Assembly (NCBI GenBank): GCA_937998305.1
Contig: CALLDL010000018.1
Coordinates: forward strand, 42,618-106,617
Reading direction: 5' to 3'
Length of the DNA: 64,000 bases
DNA from: an uncultured Desulfobacterales bacterium
GTDB taxonomy: Bacteria; Desulfobacterota; Desulfobacteria; Desulfobacterales; UBA11574
Position 1 is the stretch's first letter, and every line of letters begins with the position of its first letter. Position numbers and translations under genes: made by a program. The notes beneath the pieces were generated by a model. The model made no database searches. It was not told the DNA's origin and worked only from the letters and a program-made list of their open reading frames with translations. This document shows, piece by piece, positions 34,983 to 60,224 of the stretch.

Positions 34983-35011
34983 TTGACATATTGTGATCCA
35001 TCCAATATAGA
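34983..35011 (+). promoter_or_regulatory. sigma70-type promoter of the Phe attenuator
   Basis: TTGACA (34983-34988), 17-nt spacer, TATAGA (35006-35011). Confidence 0.75.
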
Positions 35012-35059
35012 TCTTCAAACAAAGATGACATAATAACTTTAATTTTCAGGAACTAACAG

Positions 35060-35146
35060 ATGAGGTTTCGATTTTTCTACTTTGGTTTTTTTAGTTTTTT
35101 GGATGGCTTCTTTTTTAGGAAGTCTATTCATGGGCCGGCAAGGTAG
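35060..35146 (+). CDS. Phe-rich leader peptide MRFRFFYFGFFSFLDGFFFRKSIHGPAR (attenuator)
   Basis: 28 codons, 10 Phe; located between a strong promoter and an intrinsic terminator; preceded by caggaa. Confidence 0.82.
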   Translation: MRFRFFYFGFFSFLDGFFFRKSIHGPAR

Positions 35147-35168
35147 AAAAGAACCAACTTGTTAAAAG

Positions 35169-35242
35169 CCATGGGTAGACAAAAAAAAGAAACCCATGGT
35201 TTTCTTTTTTAAGGCTGTGGGTTTCAAACCCGCAGCTTTTTT
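35169..35242 (+). terminator. Transcription attenuator: alternative hairpins and intrinsic terminator
   Basis: CCATGGGT (35169-76)/ACCCATGG (35192-99); AAACCCA can alternatively pair with TGGGTTT of the terminator 5' arm; terminator GCTGTGGGTTT-c-AAACCCGCAGC + TTTTTT (35214-35242). Confidence 0.78.
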
Positions 35243-35288: not shown

Positions 35289-35430
35289 GAGACCTTTGAA
35301 AAATGTTCAAATTTGTTCAAGTCCAAGGCAGGCGAAAATTTTAACCACAGACATACATTAAGTATTTCGAGGATTAAAATTTGAGCCTAATGCCGGAATT
35401 GGGCAAAAGGGGGCGTCTTTCAAAGGTCTC
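35289..35430. repeat. MITE-like element with 13-bp perfect terminal inverted repeats
   Basis: GAGACCTTTGAAA (35289-35301) / TTTCAAAGGTCTC (35418-35430). Confidence 0.75.
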
Positions 35431-37277: not shown

Positions 37278-37723
37278 TACCTAACCCGGCCAAGCCGGAA
37301 AAGTTACAAGTGATCTAAAGTTAAAGAGTCGCTACGCTCCGGTGTTTATATTGAATTGACGGAATTCCACAACTTTAGTCACTTCACACTTGGTAAGTTT
37401 AGATATTTTTTGCCATAAAATGCACAAAAAATATAACCAATGTACTAAAATGAGGTAATACTGCTTAAATTTTATAAAGCGGCTGATACAGGAGAATCTC
37501 CGTTCCTAGCTAAGGGTTCACGAAAGTAAGTTTGTGAAATTAATTTTGAGCGAACCCTGAGGTTTCAGATGAGATCCATTTGAAACCAAATATGGTTATT
37601 CCAGTATTCCAATACCCCAACTGGATAACATTATCGGGTGGACGATAAAGTCAGTTCGATTGTAAACGAAGTGCGGTTTCCAAAACAGTGGTAGTGCTAA
37701 ACATTTGAAAAAAGGAGGCGTAG

Positions 37724-38896
37724 ATGACACTCAAGAGAATTGCTATTTTCACAACAATCTGTCTATTCTGTCTGGGGCTGATGGTTAGTCCGGCAATGGC
37801 TTTCAAGGGGACCTATAAAGTGGGCGCTGTATTCTCCGCAACCGGTCGAACCTCTTTTTTGGGGGATCCTGAAAAGAAAACCGCCGAGATGATCGCAGAG
37901 CAGATCAACAAAGCCGGCGGTATTAACGGTCACAAACTGGAACTGATTGTATATGATACCGAAGGTGATGCAACAAAGGCTAACCTGGCAGTAAAAAAAC
38001 TGATGACCCAGGATAAAGTCAGCGCGGTGATCGGTCCTTCTTTGAGCGGGACATCTCTTGCGGTTTTACCTTTGGCTGAAAAATACAAAACGCCGCTGAT
38101 TTCCTGTGCAGCAAGCTATAAAATCGTTCATAATGACAAGACCGGCAAACCGTATAAATGGGTCTTTAAAACGCCTCAAACCGATACCATGGCTGTAGAG
38201 GCGATTTATGCACGGCTGCAAAAAAAGGGCATCAATAAGATTGCCATCGTCAGTGTGACTTCAGGATTTGGCGCCAGCGGCCGTGGTGAACTCATCCGGC
38301 TTGCTCCCAAATATAAAATGAATATTGTTGCCGATGAAAAATACGGTCCTAAAGACACGGATATGACCGCCCAGATGACCAAAATCAAGGGCAAAGCACC
38401 ACAGGCCATCATCAACTGGTCTGTGGGTCCGACCCAGGTGACCGTGCTTCGCAACAATAGAGATTTGGGAATGACCAGCATTCCGTTTTATCAGAGTCAT
38501 GGCTTTGGCAGTAGAAAGAATATCAAGCTGGCGGCAGGGGCGGCAGAAGGCGTTTTTTGCCCTCTGGGCTCATGTAACATCGCCGGGCTACTTCCGGCAA
38601 ATGATCCGCAAAAAGGTGTGACCACCAAGTATATGAAAGACTATATGGCCAAATATAACGAACCGCTGTCTTCATTTGGCGGGCATGCATGGGATGCGCT
38701 GCACATGGTAGTAAAAGCGCTTTCGAAAGTCGGCAACGACAAGGCAAAAATTCGGGACTATCTCGAAAACCATATCAAAGGCTTTGTGGGTCAGCATGGT
38801 ATTTTCAACTACTCTGCCGACGACCATAACGGTTTGACAAAAGATGCCTTTAATATGGTTGTTGTTAAAGATGGAGACTGGGCATTAGCGGACTGA
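37724..38896 (+). CDS. livK: Branched-chain/aromatic amino-acid type ABC substrate-binding protein
   Basis: Signal peptide; YKVGAVFSATGRTSFLGDPEKKTAEMIAEQINKAGGINGHKLELIVYDTEGDATKANLAVKKL. Confidence 0.9.
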   Translation: MTLKRIAIFTTICLFCLGLMVSPAMAFKGTYKVGAVFSATGRTSFLGDPEKKTAEMIAEQINKAGGINGHKLELIVYDTEGDATKANLAVKKLMTQDKVSAVIGPSLSGTSLAVLPLAEKYKTPLISCAASYKIVHNDKTGKPYKWVFKTPQTDTMAVEAIYARLQKKGINKIAIVSVTSGFGASGRGELIRLAPKYKMNIVADEKYGPKDTDMTAQMTKIKGKAPQAIINWSVGPTQVTVLRNNRDLGMTSIPFYQSHGFGSRKNIKLAAGAAEGVFCPLGSCNIAGLLPANDPQKGVTTKYMKDYMAKYNEPLSSFGGHAWDALHMVVKALSKVGNDKAKIRDYLENHIKGFVGQHGIFNYSADDHNGLTKDAFNMVVVKDGDWALAD

Positions 38897-38970
38897 TTTT
38901 TCCCCTTATTGATCGTAAACAAAAACTTTCGATCATTTAGGGTTTTAAATTCTTTCCAACATTTTTTAGT

Positions 38971-39005
38971 GAGGGTGGTGTTCCATTTTACCACCCTCGC
39001 TTTTT
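38971..39005 (+). terminator. Intrinsic terminator between livK and livH
   Basis: GAGGGTGGT - GTTCCATTTT - ACCACCCTC then GCTTTTT. Confidence 0.85.
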
Positions 39006-39014
39006 AAATTTGAA

Positions 39015-39168
39015 TTCCCAACTACTTGTTGGAGTGTAGCGGAAATCCCGTCTCTCGGGGCTAGGGGATATGATTTTTAGCCCGCCGGAGGCGGGTAAAC
39101 CTTTCACCAATAAGATCCCACAGGTTCACCTGCGGGAGTTTCATAAAATCGTAACACGATTTTATTCT
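39015..39168. repeat. Intergenic repeat related to 20395-20550
   Basis: Shared words plus ATAAAATCGT-AAC-ACGATTTTAT hairpin. Confidence 0.65.
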
Positions 39169-40071
39169 ATGGAAACGATAACACTATCAGGGCAGCTGTT
39201 TCAATACCTGATCACCGGCATTACCGTGGGCAGTGTCTATGCCATGGTGGCCGTGGGATTTAACATCATCTATAATGTGACCGAGATCATCAATTTCGCC
39301 CAGGGCGAATTCGTCATGCTGGGGGGATTGATCATGGTCTTTTTCCACGTGGTCATGGGGCTTCCTTTAATAATGGCTTTCCCTGCCACGGTTATTCTTG
39401 TGATGCTGGTGGGAATACTTTTAGACCGGTTGGCGATCCGCCCCATCCGCCAGCCCTCGGTTCTTACGCTGATTATCGCCACCATTGCAGCGTCGATTCT
39501 TCTCAAGGGCGCGGCCATGTTTATCTGGGGCAAGGATCCATATGATCTACCGGCGTTTTCCGGCCGCAATCCCATCACTGTTTTCGGTGCCGTGATTCAA
39601 CCCCAGTATTTGTGGGTGATCGGCTTTCTGATCGTTATTGTCATTGTTTTGTCGATCTTTTTTGATCGAACCATTATCGGAAAGGCCATGAGCGCCTGTG
39701 CGGACAATCCGAACGCGGCCAGCCTGGTGGGGATTAATGTCAAACAAATGATTTTGTTGTCTTTTGCCCTTTCAGCGGCCATTGGGGCGGTGGCCGGTAT
39801 TACGGTAACACCCATATCCCTTATGGAATACGATCGGGGAGCCATGCTGGCGGTGAAGGGATTCGGTGCGGCCATCCTTGGAGGACTGGGAAGCTTTCCC
39901 GGGGCGATTCTGGGGGGGCTTATTATGGGAACCATCGAATCATTCGGTGCCGGAGTGATCAGCTCGGGATACAAAGATGCTTTTGCGCTGATCGTGCTTC
40001 TGATCGTCCTGTTTTTTAGACCCAGTGGAATTTTAGGGAGTATAGAGATCAGCAAGATCAAAAGGTTTTAA
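39169..40071 (+). CDS. livH: ABC transporter permease LivH
   Basis: ITVGSVYAMVAVGFNIIYNVTEIINFAQGEFVMLGG; ATG 39169 preferred over ORF start in repeat. Confidence 0.93.
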   Translation: METITLSGQLFQYLITGITVGSVYAMVAVGFNIIYNVTEIINFAQGEFVMLGGLIMVFFHVVMGLPLIMAFPATVILVMLVGILLDRLAIRPIRQPSVLTLIIATIAASILLKGAAMFIWGKDPYDLPAFSGRNPITVFGAVIQPQYLWVIGFLIVIVIVLSIFFDRTIIGKAMSACADNPNAASLVGINVKQMILLSFALSAAIGAVAGITVTPISLMEYDRGAMLAVKGFGAAILGGLGSFPGAILGGLIMGTIESFGAGVISSGYKDAFALIVLLIVLFFRPSGILGSIEISKIKRF

Positions 40072-40073
40072 GG

Positions 40074-41027
40074 ATGTTACGAATCGGAAAAATTCCCATC
40101 GCTGTCTTTGCGCTCTTTATCATCGCCTTTCCATGGGTTACCCACGAAATTCCCTCTATAGAACATTATACCGACATCATGATCTTTGCAGGGATATACT
40201 GCCTGATAACCATGGGACTGAGTTTGCTCATGGGCTATACCGGCCAGATCTCCATCGGGCATGCGGCCTTTTACGGCATCGGCGCCTATACTTCTGCCAT
40301 TCTGACGGCCCAGTATGGTTTGAATCCCTGGCCGTGCATAATTGTCGGTATGGCCATATCGGCGGTGATTGCCGTTTTGGTGGGAGCACCTTCTCTCAAG
40401 CTAAAGGGTCATTATCTGGCCATGGCAACGCTGGCTTTTGGGATTATTGTGTATATCATTTTCAATGAAGAGGCGGCCTGGACCGGCGGCCCGGATGGTA
40501 TGACCGGCATTCCCGGATTAAGCCTGTTCGGATTTGAATTTGATTCTGTTAAAAAGTATTATTATTTGGTCTGGATTTTTGTCTTTGCTGCGTTTATCTT
40601 TACCGTCAATATAATTCAATCGGGCATAGGGCGTGCCTTACGGGCCATTCATGTCAGTGAACCGGCGGCCAGCGCCATGGGTGTGGATATTTCCAGGTTT
40701 AAGATACTGGTCTTTGTCTATTCAGCGGTTTTAGCCTCTTTGGCGGGCAGTCTTTATGCGCATTATCTTAATTTTATCAACCCATCAACCTTCGACCTTT
40801 TCTTTTCCATCAAGCTTCTTATCATGATTGCGCTGGGAGGGATGTACAATATCTGGGGCGCGATAATCGGCGCCGGCCTCATCACCTTTTTAAGCTATGA
40901 ATGGCTCTATTATTTTCAAGAATATGAAGTCATCGTATATGGCGCCATCCTGCTTCTGGTCACCATTTTTTTCCCCAAAGGACTGGTTGGAGTGCCGGGA
41001 ATCGTAAAGGGCTGGTTCAGGGAATAG
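40074..41027 (+). CDS. livM: ABC transporter permease LivM
   Basis: LSLLMGYTGQISIGHAAFYGIGAYTSAIL. Confidence 0.94.
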   Translation: MLRIGKIPIAVFALFIIAFPWVTHEIPSIEHYTDIMIFAGIYCLITMGLSLLMGYTGQISIGHAAFYGIGAYTSAILTAQYGLNPWPCIIVGMAISAVIAVLVGAPSLKLKGHYLAMATLAFGIIVYIIFNEEAAWTGGPDGMTGIPGLSLFGFEFDSVKKYYYLVWIFVFAAFIFTVNIIQSGIGRALRAIHVSEPAASAMGVDISRFKILVFVYSAVLASLAGSLYAHYLNFINPSTFDLFFSIKLLIMIALGGMYNIWGAIIGAGLITFLSYEWLYYFQEYEVIVYGAILLLVTIFFPKGLVGVPGIVKGWFRE

Positions 41028-41034
41028 AAATCCA

Positions 41035-41814
41035 ATGAATTTTGTTGAAGAAGAAAATATTCTGGAGCTAAATCGAGTGGTCATGGCCTTTGGTGGGTTG
41101 ATGGCGCTCAGCAATCTTAATTTTCAGGTAAAAAAGGGAATGATCAAAGCCATTATCGGTCCCAATGGCGCAGGCAAGACAACGCTGTTCAATATCATTA
41201 CAGGTTCTTTTCCGCCCACAGAAGGATCGGTCATGTTCAAGGGATTGCCCATTGAACATCTCAAAGCCCACAAGATTGCGGAGCGGGGTATTTCCAGGAC
41301 ATTCCAGACCGTGGAGCTGTTCGGTAATATGACGGTTCTGGAAAATGTGATGCTCGGCTGTCATACCAGAGTAAGATCATCTTTTTTGTCTTCGGGGTTT
41401 CAACTTCCGCAGTTCAGACGGAAAGAAGCACAGGTTAAAGAAAGCGCTATGAAGATATTAAAATTTATCGGACTTGTCGATAAATTCAATGACCCTGCAG
41501 ACAGTTTGCCTTTAGGGGAGCAAAAGATACTCGAGATCGGGCGGGCCCTGGCCAGTGAACCGGAACTGATGTGTCTGGATGAACCTGCAGCCGGTTTAAA
41601 TGAGACCGAAACTTACGTGGCATCTTCTCTGATCCGGGCCATCAATGCAAAGGGGATTACCGTTCTACTGGTAGAACACGATATGAAAGTGATCATGAAC
41701 ATATCCGATGAGATCGCGGTGTTGAACTATGGGCAGAAGATTGCCGAAGGATCGCCCCAAGAGATACAAAATAATCGTAGGGTTATTGAAGCTTATTTGG
41801 GAAGCGAGATATAA
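41035..41814 (+). CDS. livG: ABC transporter ATPase LivG
   Basis: IIGPNGAGKTTLFNIITG; LPLGEQKILEIGRALASEPELMCLDEPAAGLN. Confidence 0.95.
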   Translation: MNFVEEENILELNRVVMAFGGLMALSNLNFQVKKGMIKAIIGPNGAGKTTLFNIITGSFPPTEGSVMFKGLPIEHLKAHKIAERGISRTFQTVELFGNMTVLENVMLGCHTRVRSSFLSSGFQLPQFRRKEAQVKESAMKILKFIGLVDKFNDPADSLPLGEQKILEIGRALASEPELMCLDEPAAGLNETETYVASSLIRAINAKGITVLLVEHDMKVIMNISDEIAVLNYGQKIAEGSPQEIQNNRRVIEAYLGSEI

Positions 41815-41817
41815 AAC

Positions 41818-42531
41818 ATGCTAAGGATTGAGGGCTTAAACGCTGCCTATGACAGTATCCAGGTGCTTAAAAATGTCTCCCTAAAGGTGCCGAAAGGAAA
41901 GGTAGTTTCCATTATCGGGGCCAATGGGGCCGGCAAGTCGACCCTTTTGAAGTCGATCTCCGGTTTGATGAATATCAGCAAAGGGAGCATTTTTTATAAA
42001 GACAAGGATATTGCCGGAATGCCTGCTAACCGGATCGTAGGTTTGGGTATATCTCAAGTGCCCGAAGGAAGGCAGATTTTTGCCCATCTGAGCGTTCTGG
42101 ACAATATTCATCTTGGAGCCTATCTCTACTTTAAGCGCAACAATCGCCTTGAAATAAAAAAACGCGTTGATCGCATTTATGAGATTTTCCCCATCCTTGA
42201 AACACGTTCCAAACAAATCGCCGGTACACTGTCCGGCGGCGAGCAGCAGATGCTGGCCATTGCCCGTGCTTTGATGGCCCGGCCTGAAATGCTTCTTTTG
42301 GATGAGCCCTCCATGGGCATCGCCCCATTGATCGTTCGCGAAATATTTAACGTCATTCAACAGCTTAATGAATCCGGGACGACGATCCTTCTTGTGGAAC
42401 AGAATGCACGGGCTGCCCTCAAAGTGGCCCATCACTCCTATGTCCTTGAAAGGGGCGAAGTTGTAATGGAAGGTCTGGCCGGCGAATTACTGAACAATCC
42501 CAGGGTGAAAGAAGTATATCTTGGTGGATAG
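41818..42531 (+). CDS. livF: ABC transporter ATPase LivF
   Basis: IIGANGAGKSTLLKSISGL; TLSGGEQQMLAIARALMARPEMLLLDEPSMGIAP. Confidence 0.96.
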   Translation: MLRIEGLNAAYDSIQVLKNVSLKVPKGKVVSIIGANGAGKSTLLKSISGLMNISKGSIFYKDKDIAGMPANRIVGLGISQVPEGRQIFAHLSVLDNIHLGAYLYFKRNNRLEIKKRVDRIYEIFPILETRSKQIAGTLSGGEQQMLAIARALMARPEMLLLDEPSMGIAPLIVREIFNVIQQLNESGTTILLVEQNARAALKVAHHSYVLERGEVVMEGLAGELLNNPRVKEVYLGG

Positions 42532-59343: not shown

Positions 59344-59699
59344 GGGGGCGAAACGGCTTCGACGGGGATAAAGAAGCACAGGTTGCATACCAAGCTCCTG
59401 CCGGCTTGTAAAAAAGGTGGGAAATTAAACATAATCGCAGATGATTATAATTACGCTCTAGCCGCTTAAAGGCTAGCGTCCTGCCGAACCATTCCTGCTA
59501 ATTCGGCAAGGGCGTCGACGAGCAGGATAGCTGGTCCCTAAATCCTGTTAACGGATCAGCGAATATTCTTACAGGATAGCCTTTTAAGCATCCTGCCTGG
59601 AGGAGACTAAAAAAGGCGAAAGCGAAAGTTCAGGCTATGTATGTAGATGCCTATGCGGAATGTTTTCGGACGCGGGTTCGACTCCCGCCGCCTCCACCA
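59344..59699 (+). ncRNA. ssrA: tmRNA
   Basis: GGGGGCGAAACGGCTTCGACGGGG 5' end, tag ORF gcagatgattataattacgctctagccgcttaa (ADDYNYALAA), 3' GGTTCGACTCCCGCCGCCTCCACCA. Confidence 0.97.
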
Positions 59700-59735
59700 T
59701 TTGAAAATCTAGTCATATCAGGGCGTTAGCCCTGT

Positions 59736-60224
59736 TCAGGGACGTGGATTTTCACGATTGTGACCATAATTGTGACCAATTGTGACCAAATCCGTGTCCC
59801 TTTTGTTTTTGGTGGCTTCCAAATAAAGCTTTTCAAGGGCTGATCCGTCATGCCTTGTCAGATTTGGAATATAGCGACCGTAAGTCTTATACACCATGGA
59901 CGTGTTCACATGCCCTAAGGTTCTGGCCACCCATTCAGGTGATTCTCCGGCGCCTAAAGCCCAGGAAGCGAACGTGTGACGTGTTTCGTACATTCTCCGA
60001 TACCTAAGACCGCTTTTTTTCATGGCCCGCGCCCAGACCTCTCTGGCTTTGTCCTGAAGGATGGGTTTTGCGTTGATGTTTAAAAACACATACGGGTTGT
60101 TAAGATCCTTCGTCAGTTCCCACTGATCTTCAAGAACCTTTCGCATAGACGGTCTGATCTCGATCCTTCGCCGACTTTCTTCGGTCTTTAAATCCGATTT
60201 TTCCCTGTTTCGAACCCTGCTAAG
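59736..60224 (-). pseudogene. C-terminal remnant of a tyrosine recombinase/phage integrase
   Basis: Reverse strand reads SRVRNREKSDLKTEESRRRIEIRPSMRKVLED...RYRRMYETRHTFASWALGAGESPEWVARTLGHVNTSMVYKTYGRYIP; open frame ends at a stop at 60225-60227 with no N-terminal half. Confidence 0.85.

Follow-up and report, generated by a model that had tools for sequence, protein, structure and literature searches.

The window, that is, the whole 64,000-nt stretch of DNA analysed here, carries a Phe-rich reading frame, a set of hairpins and an intrinsic terminator upstream of a paaK-like gene. Such a leader would assign a signal of phenylalanine shortage to an operon whose paaK would normally suggest catabolism and whose transporter would pass for a generic importer of branched-chain amino acids. 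In Escherichia coli, pheA (pheL) and pheST (pheM) are preceded by a Phe-rich leader peptide, alternative hairpins and an intrinsic terminator, and low Phe-tRNA leads to read-through. A sequence-only reading had proposed a phenylalanine attenuator at this locus. The proposal survived a comparison with orthologous loci, and several features could be added to it, namely six segments that pair in a chain, a U-tract behind the first hairpin, and related elements in front of other genes. Very probably, the leader regulates the paaK-ACT-liv operon by transcription attenuation, with the translating ribosome as the sensor of charged tRNA-Phe.

Layout of the leader and its hairpins

The features of the leader and the operon are collected in Table 1. 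The promoter 5' of the leader, recognized by sequence, was found as first described, and 47 of 50 orthologues have an exact TTGACA with a spacer of 16-18 nt on the 5' side of the leader. A generic promoter scan of the window did not list the promoter at 34983-35011 because the scan requires a T at position 6 of the -10 element. Transcription would start near 35018. The short leader frame, whose translation is predicted, has the 28 codons and 10 Phe codons initially counted, and thereby the repeated codons for the sensed amino acid that are typical of attenuators.

Downstream lie mutually exclusive hairpins, one of which is an intrinsic terminator before the operon. The first hairpin, CCATGGGT (from 35169) with ACCCATGG (to 35199), is present as claimed, and the alternative pairing proposed between its 3' arm and the 5' arm of the terminator corresponds to a helix, C:D, that is kept among orthologues with compensatory changes. 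Two details of the sequence-only reading required correction. The terminator with its T6 (35237-35242) stands, but its stem (GCTGTGGGTT/AACCCGCAGC), described as a perfect 11-bp helix, contains one G-U pair and offers 10 usable bp with a 3-nt loop; an 11-bp version would leave a loop of 1 nt. Likewise, the CATGGG within the leader frame is a real competitor, but these 6 nt belong to a longer segment of 12 nt (35122-35133), which forms 12 bp with CCATGGGTAGAC (35169-35180). Six pairing segments, Z, A, B, C, D and E, form the chain Z:A, A:B, B:C, C:D and D:E. A U-tract also follows hairpin B:C: in 36 of the 51 paaK elements six or more of 9 bases are T, a composition found at about 7% of background positions. 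Two tandem terminators, B:C and D:E, probably act in termination, the stop at B:C being suggested by this U-tract; such a double-terminator layout departs from textbook cases.

Table 1. Leader elements and operon genes in the window
Feature	Position	Strand	Remarks
Promoter TTGACA-17-TATAGA	34983..35011	+	TTGACA 34983-34988, 17-nt spacer, TATAGA 35006-35011; from sequence and orthologues
Probable leader ribosome-binding site (CAGGAA)	35047..35052	+	predicted from sequence
Phe-rich leader ORF MRFRFFYFGFFSFLDGFFFRKSIHGPAR	35060..35146	+	ATG 35060, TAG 35146; peptide conserved
Segment Y (CTACTTTG)	35077..35084	+	partner 35139-35146 (Y:Y'), flanking Z:A
Segment Z (GGCTTC, codons 16-17)	35105..35110	+	partner 35119-35124; would hold A without a stalled ribosome
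Segment A (GTCTATTCATGG)	35122..35133	+	leader codons KSIHG; 12 bp with B
Segment B (AGCCATGGGTAGAC)	35167..35180	+	partner A or C
Segment C (AACCCATGGTT)	35191..35201	+	partner B or D
First U-tract, 3' of hairpin B:C	35200..35210	+	possible upstream terminator
Segment D (GGCTGTGGGTT)	35213..35223	+	terminator 5' arm, or partner of C
Segment E (AACCCGCAGC) and T6	35227..35242	+	E = 35227-35236; intrinsic terminator with D
paaK-like aryl-CoA ligase, 433 aa	35462..36763	+	
ACT-domain pair protein (ACT_8), 152 aa	36819..37277	+	
livJ	37724-38896	+	
livH	39070-40071	+	
livM	40074-41027	+	
livG	41035-41814	+	
livF	41818-42531	+	

Conservation among paaK leaders

The source is a draft genome from a family that counts 24 genomes. 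A homologous leader occurs directly 5' of paaK orthologues in about 50 genomes of the family, the order and the phylum, with conservation of the peptide, the promoter and the pairings. The sequence-only reading had staked itself on the persistence of the Phe codons and of the alternative hairpins at orthologous loci; across about 50 of these the Phe run is kept with exchange of TTT and TTC, and the helices are kept with compensatory changes. Among 24 leaders that align without gaps, Phe is retained at its columns while the third base exchanges between TTT and TTC. Close relatives share the leader peptide MRFRFFYFGFFSFLxGFFFRKSxHG, and the corresponding peptide of Desulfacinum infernum DSM 9756 reads MDNRFFRFRFFGFFGGFFFRKSAHGRGR.

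A covariance model, R1, was built from the orthologues, including the window locus, and scores 116.6 bits at the leader that formed part of its training set; no second strong site was found across the 64-kb window. Applied to 80 public paaK loci, some of which overlap the training set, R1 detected strong plus-strand sites in 41, all just 5' of paaK, and none away from paaK in the 1.08 Mb of the same loci. About half of the 80 loci gave no R1 match; the element is missing from many paaK orthologues, and the operon can therefore do without it. In two genomes (L037 and L252, one of them a Candidatus Desulfaltia), the region 5' of paaK has kept the promoter, B:C and D:E and has lost the leader ORF. 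These would be expected to be decaying attenuators with constitutive termination.

Covariation was counted on an alignment of 50 sequences (A1) against 500 column shuffles and against slid partners. D:E was also judged on A1, as the automatic extraction of segment E was poor. For A:B and C:D, 94.9% of cells are paired (slid partners 29-49%) with 38 doubly changed cells against a shuffled mean of 9.4; for B:C and D:E, 93.2% are paired (slid partners 31-49%) with 54 doubly changed cells against 16.1. Neither count was reached in any of the 500 shuffles, and compensatory changes in the four helices A:B, B:C, C:D and D:E are far above both controls. The changes frequently span three segments simultaneously: CCC:GGG:CCC becomes CTC:GAG:CTC through C, D and E at once at locus L005, while L057 presents CTCATGG, CCATGAG and TTCATGG in A, B and C. 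This degree of conservation and covariation, together with a folding z-score of -4.5, speaks against a T-rich intergenic stretch with a fortuitous ORF and hairpins. The region is AT-rich and generic scans give terminator-like sites elsewhere, but chance is already refuted by conservation and its probability is practically nil.

Z:A and Y:Y' lie above the slid controls and hardly above the column shuffles, and are therefore less firmly shown than A:B to D:E; Y:Y' has 84% of cells paired in 24 leaders with weak covariation. Codon choice nevertheless follows pairing at two positions: most Phe columns use TTT, whereas the Phe-17 codon within Z is TTC in 20 of 23 leaders and the Phe-6 codon at the end of Y is TTC in 14 of 20. 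Moreover, both the peptide tail KSIHG and the GTRGAC after CCATGGG are conserved because A pairs with B over 12 bp. These constraints weigh against a small functional peptide, with a membrane or signalling role, whose hairpins merely end the transcript. The hydrophobic nature and conserved sequence of the peptide would suit such a role, but the conserved tail KSxHG is accounted for by pairing with B, the codons of Phe-17 and Phe-6 obey the RNA, and sister elements keep the RNA design while their peptide turns Trp-rich or mixed aromatic according to the downstream gene, which makes this explanation very unlikely.

Folding and the proposed switch

When the full transcript is folded with no ribosome on it, Z:A and Y:Y' have pair probabilities of about 1 and A:B of about 0, whereas covering the RNA to 35105 raises A:B to about 1. 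RNA made to the end of D with A free adopts A:B and C:D; the complete transcript with A masked adopts B:C and D:E. A simpler five-segment model (A-E only), in which an untranslated leader would default to read-through, is contradicted by the full-transcript folding, and inclusion of Z:A and Y:Y' restores termination as the default.

The attenuator is proposed to operate as follows. Transcription would begin near the predicted start and the 28-codon leader would be translated. With ample Phe-tRNA, or on a leader without a ribosome, Z and Y:Y' would sequester A and prevent it from pairing with B, an effect that a ribosome positioned on the stop codon could also have. Once A is unavailable, B:C and D:E would form and the polymerase would terminate at D:E, probably already at B:C. 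If Phe-tRNA is scarce, the ribosome would stall on the Phe run and release A, so that A:B forms and C becomes free for D. Both terminators would then be absent, and transcription would continue into the operon.

A T-box, riboswitch or protein-binding leader with an incidental ORF would also place a terminator with an alternative pairing before an amino-acid-related operon. A search of the leader against Rfam returned no family at gathering score, T-boxes and riboswitches included, and no T-box or amino-acid leader family, Phe_leader included, up to E = 10. As the Phe codons are moreover conserved as codons, this explanation is hardly credible.

Relation to known attenuators

The enteric his attenuator comprises six alternately pairing segments that lead by default to a terminator, and stalling shifts the register by one. 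The present leader resembles it in its six-segment chain and differs in the use of Phe rather than His codons and in a B:C hairpin with its own U-tract. With the E. coli pheA and pheST leaders and Rfam Phe_leader, it shares a Phe leader peptide, alternative hairpins, a terminator and the proposed read-through at low Phe-tRNA; relative to pheA and pheST, the sequence is different, the six-segment chain and the U-tract after the upstream hairpin are distinguishing features, and the target is a CoA ligase-ACT-transporter operon. Multiply pairing sequences of attenuators are conserved over long distances (PMC1262725), as they are in the present family. The trp attenuators of proteobacteria and Actinobacteria likewise combine a leader peptide with alternative hairpins but were studied in other phyla (PMC1262725), and the His leader peptides of Firmicutes are also cases of leader-peptide attenuation outside the enteric models, in a different phylum and with a different amino acid and targets (PMC2965389). 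No account of attenuation in Desulfo-type bacteria, or at paaK, came up in a search of the literature. The attenuator is thus ordinary in principle and apparently new as a family, in its target and in its double terminator, where the sequence predicts a stop at B:C.

Sister elements before aromatic amino-acid genes

With R1, matches at E up to 1 were obtained in 56 of 60 relatives, most of which had several. Among the matches fetched with their surroundings, 57 of 59 precede aromatic or paaK/liv genes by gene content, some of the trpD, DAHP synthase and aroE assignments having been made by reading protein starts rather than by family search. One of the remaining two matches lies at a contig end. 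The second, a weak match before a class I/II aminotransferase gene (L226, 1094-2407) that has no evident leader, may be a false positive or an unrelated terminator.

In 53 of 54 sister elements, the counterpart of B:C is a terminator-like hairpin with six or more T in 8 bases, and Rfam gave no family at gathering score. Leaders before trpE or trpD contain W runs (MKIDKHKHEICKIDLNHWWWWQIQSNGSAPVT in the source genome), those before an aro operon with a DeoC-type synthase and 3-dehydroquinate synthase II are mixed in Phe, Tyr and Trp, and those before DAHP synthase are YFYYWYFF-like. A fusion of DAHP synthase, prephenate dehydratase and ACT domains in the source genome (625 aa; L174, 1436-3313) has a Phe leader, MMNKRCVFRLSNAFGRFFFIFRSVHPDR, within a GC-rich version of the same design. 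In another genome (G035, L181), an element precedes a liv transporter alone, with transporter domains confirmed and a Phe leader that resembles the paaK leader. In hand-picked examples, the mean numbers of F/Y/W per leader are 9.9/1.3/0 for paaK, 6.5/0.8/0 for DAHP synthase-prephenate dehydratase, 0.9/1.0/3.6 for trpE and 3.9/4.4/0.9 for aro. Two DAHP synthase genes (L214 and L219) carry Trp-rich rather than mixed aromatic leaders (FWWW, FFWRWWW), which suggests Trp-specific isozymes.

Since the same architecture stands before trp, aro and phe genes, paaK-ACT-liv belongs to an aromatic amino-acid attenuation regulon. Leader-peptide attenuation would thus be a regulon-wide device in a group without a matching Rfam model. 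The sister trp, aro and prephenate dehydratase genes supply the sensed amino acid, and for the paaK-ACT-liv genes this is plausible.

Function of the paaK-ACT-liv operon

The ligase aligns over its full length with TIGR02155 (PaaK equivalog) and scores 626.2, just below the cut-off of 646.3; it is therefore designated a PaaK-like aryl-CoA ligase, for which phenylacetate is a candidate substrate. The livJHMGF genes (37724..42531) encode an ABC transporter of the branched-chain amino-acid type that may import Phe or phenylacetate. Many relatives share the gene order paaK-ACT-livJHMGF, frequently with mutS-amidase-enoyl-CoA hydratase in front of it. R1 detected no internal attenuator in the ACT-livJ gap.

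Activation of the operon by Phe shortage would fit uptake of Phe or phenylacetate together with re-synthesis of Phe. For salvage, phenylacetate could be activated to phenylacetyl-CoA, from which a ferredoxin oxidoreductase running backwards would produce phenylpyruvate. Indolepyruvate:ferredoxin oxidoreductase genes are located elsewhere in the source genome, a draft, and no leader on such genes was among the fetched R1 matches. The same Phe attenuator could instead serve an operon for the degradation of Phe or phenylacetate, as PaaK is normally a phenylacetate-catabolic enzyme and phenylacetate is degraded by relatives of the group (PMC5109826). However, attenuation at Phe codons would shut such an operon when Phe is plentiful, the sister elements precede biosynthesis genes, and the ligase and transporter that Desulfococcus multivorans produces on phenylacetate are different ones (PMC5109826). 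A degradative role is therefore unlikely, and the operon most likely supplies Phe by uptake and/or arylacetate salvage. The salvage or uptake role thereby becomes directly testable. A wider picture is possible, though short of probable: a lineage-wide attenuator family of sulfate-reducer-type bacteria would coordinate trp, aro, phe and arylacetate salvage or uptake, its tandem terminators B:C and D:E would be disarmed together on release of A, and paaK would be a Phe-salvage gene acting with indolepyruvate:ferredoxin oxidoreductase in reverse.

Several repeats and a mobile-element trace lie in the same window. Between the terminator and paaK, an inverted-repeat element with GAGACCTTTGAAA ends (35289-35430) has 52 matches in the source genome, several of them full length at 79-92%. 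It is, by its sequence, a MITE-like insertion, which accounts for the unusually long gap between terminator and paaK. The first part of the ACT-livJ gap (37278-37450) is another dispersed genome repeat, with copies at 76-92% identity. Further downstream, a tmRNA gene (59344-59699) is followed on the opposite strand by a 136-aa C-terminal fragment of a phage integrase, and 59344-60146 probably represents what is left of an element that had inserted at ssrA.
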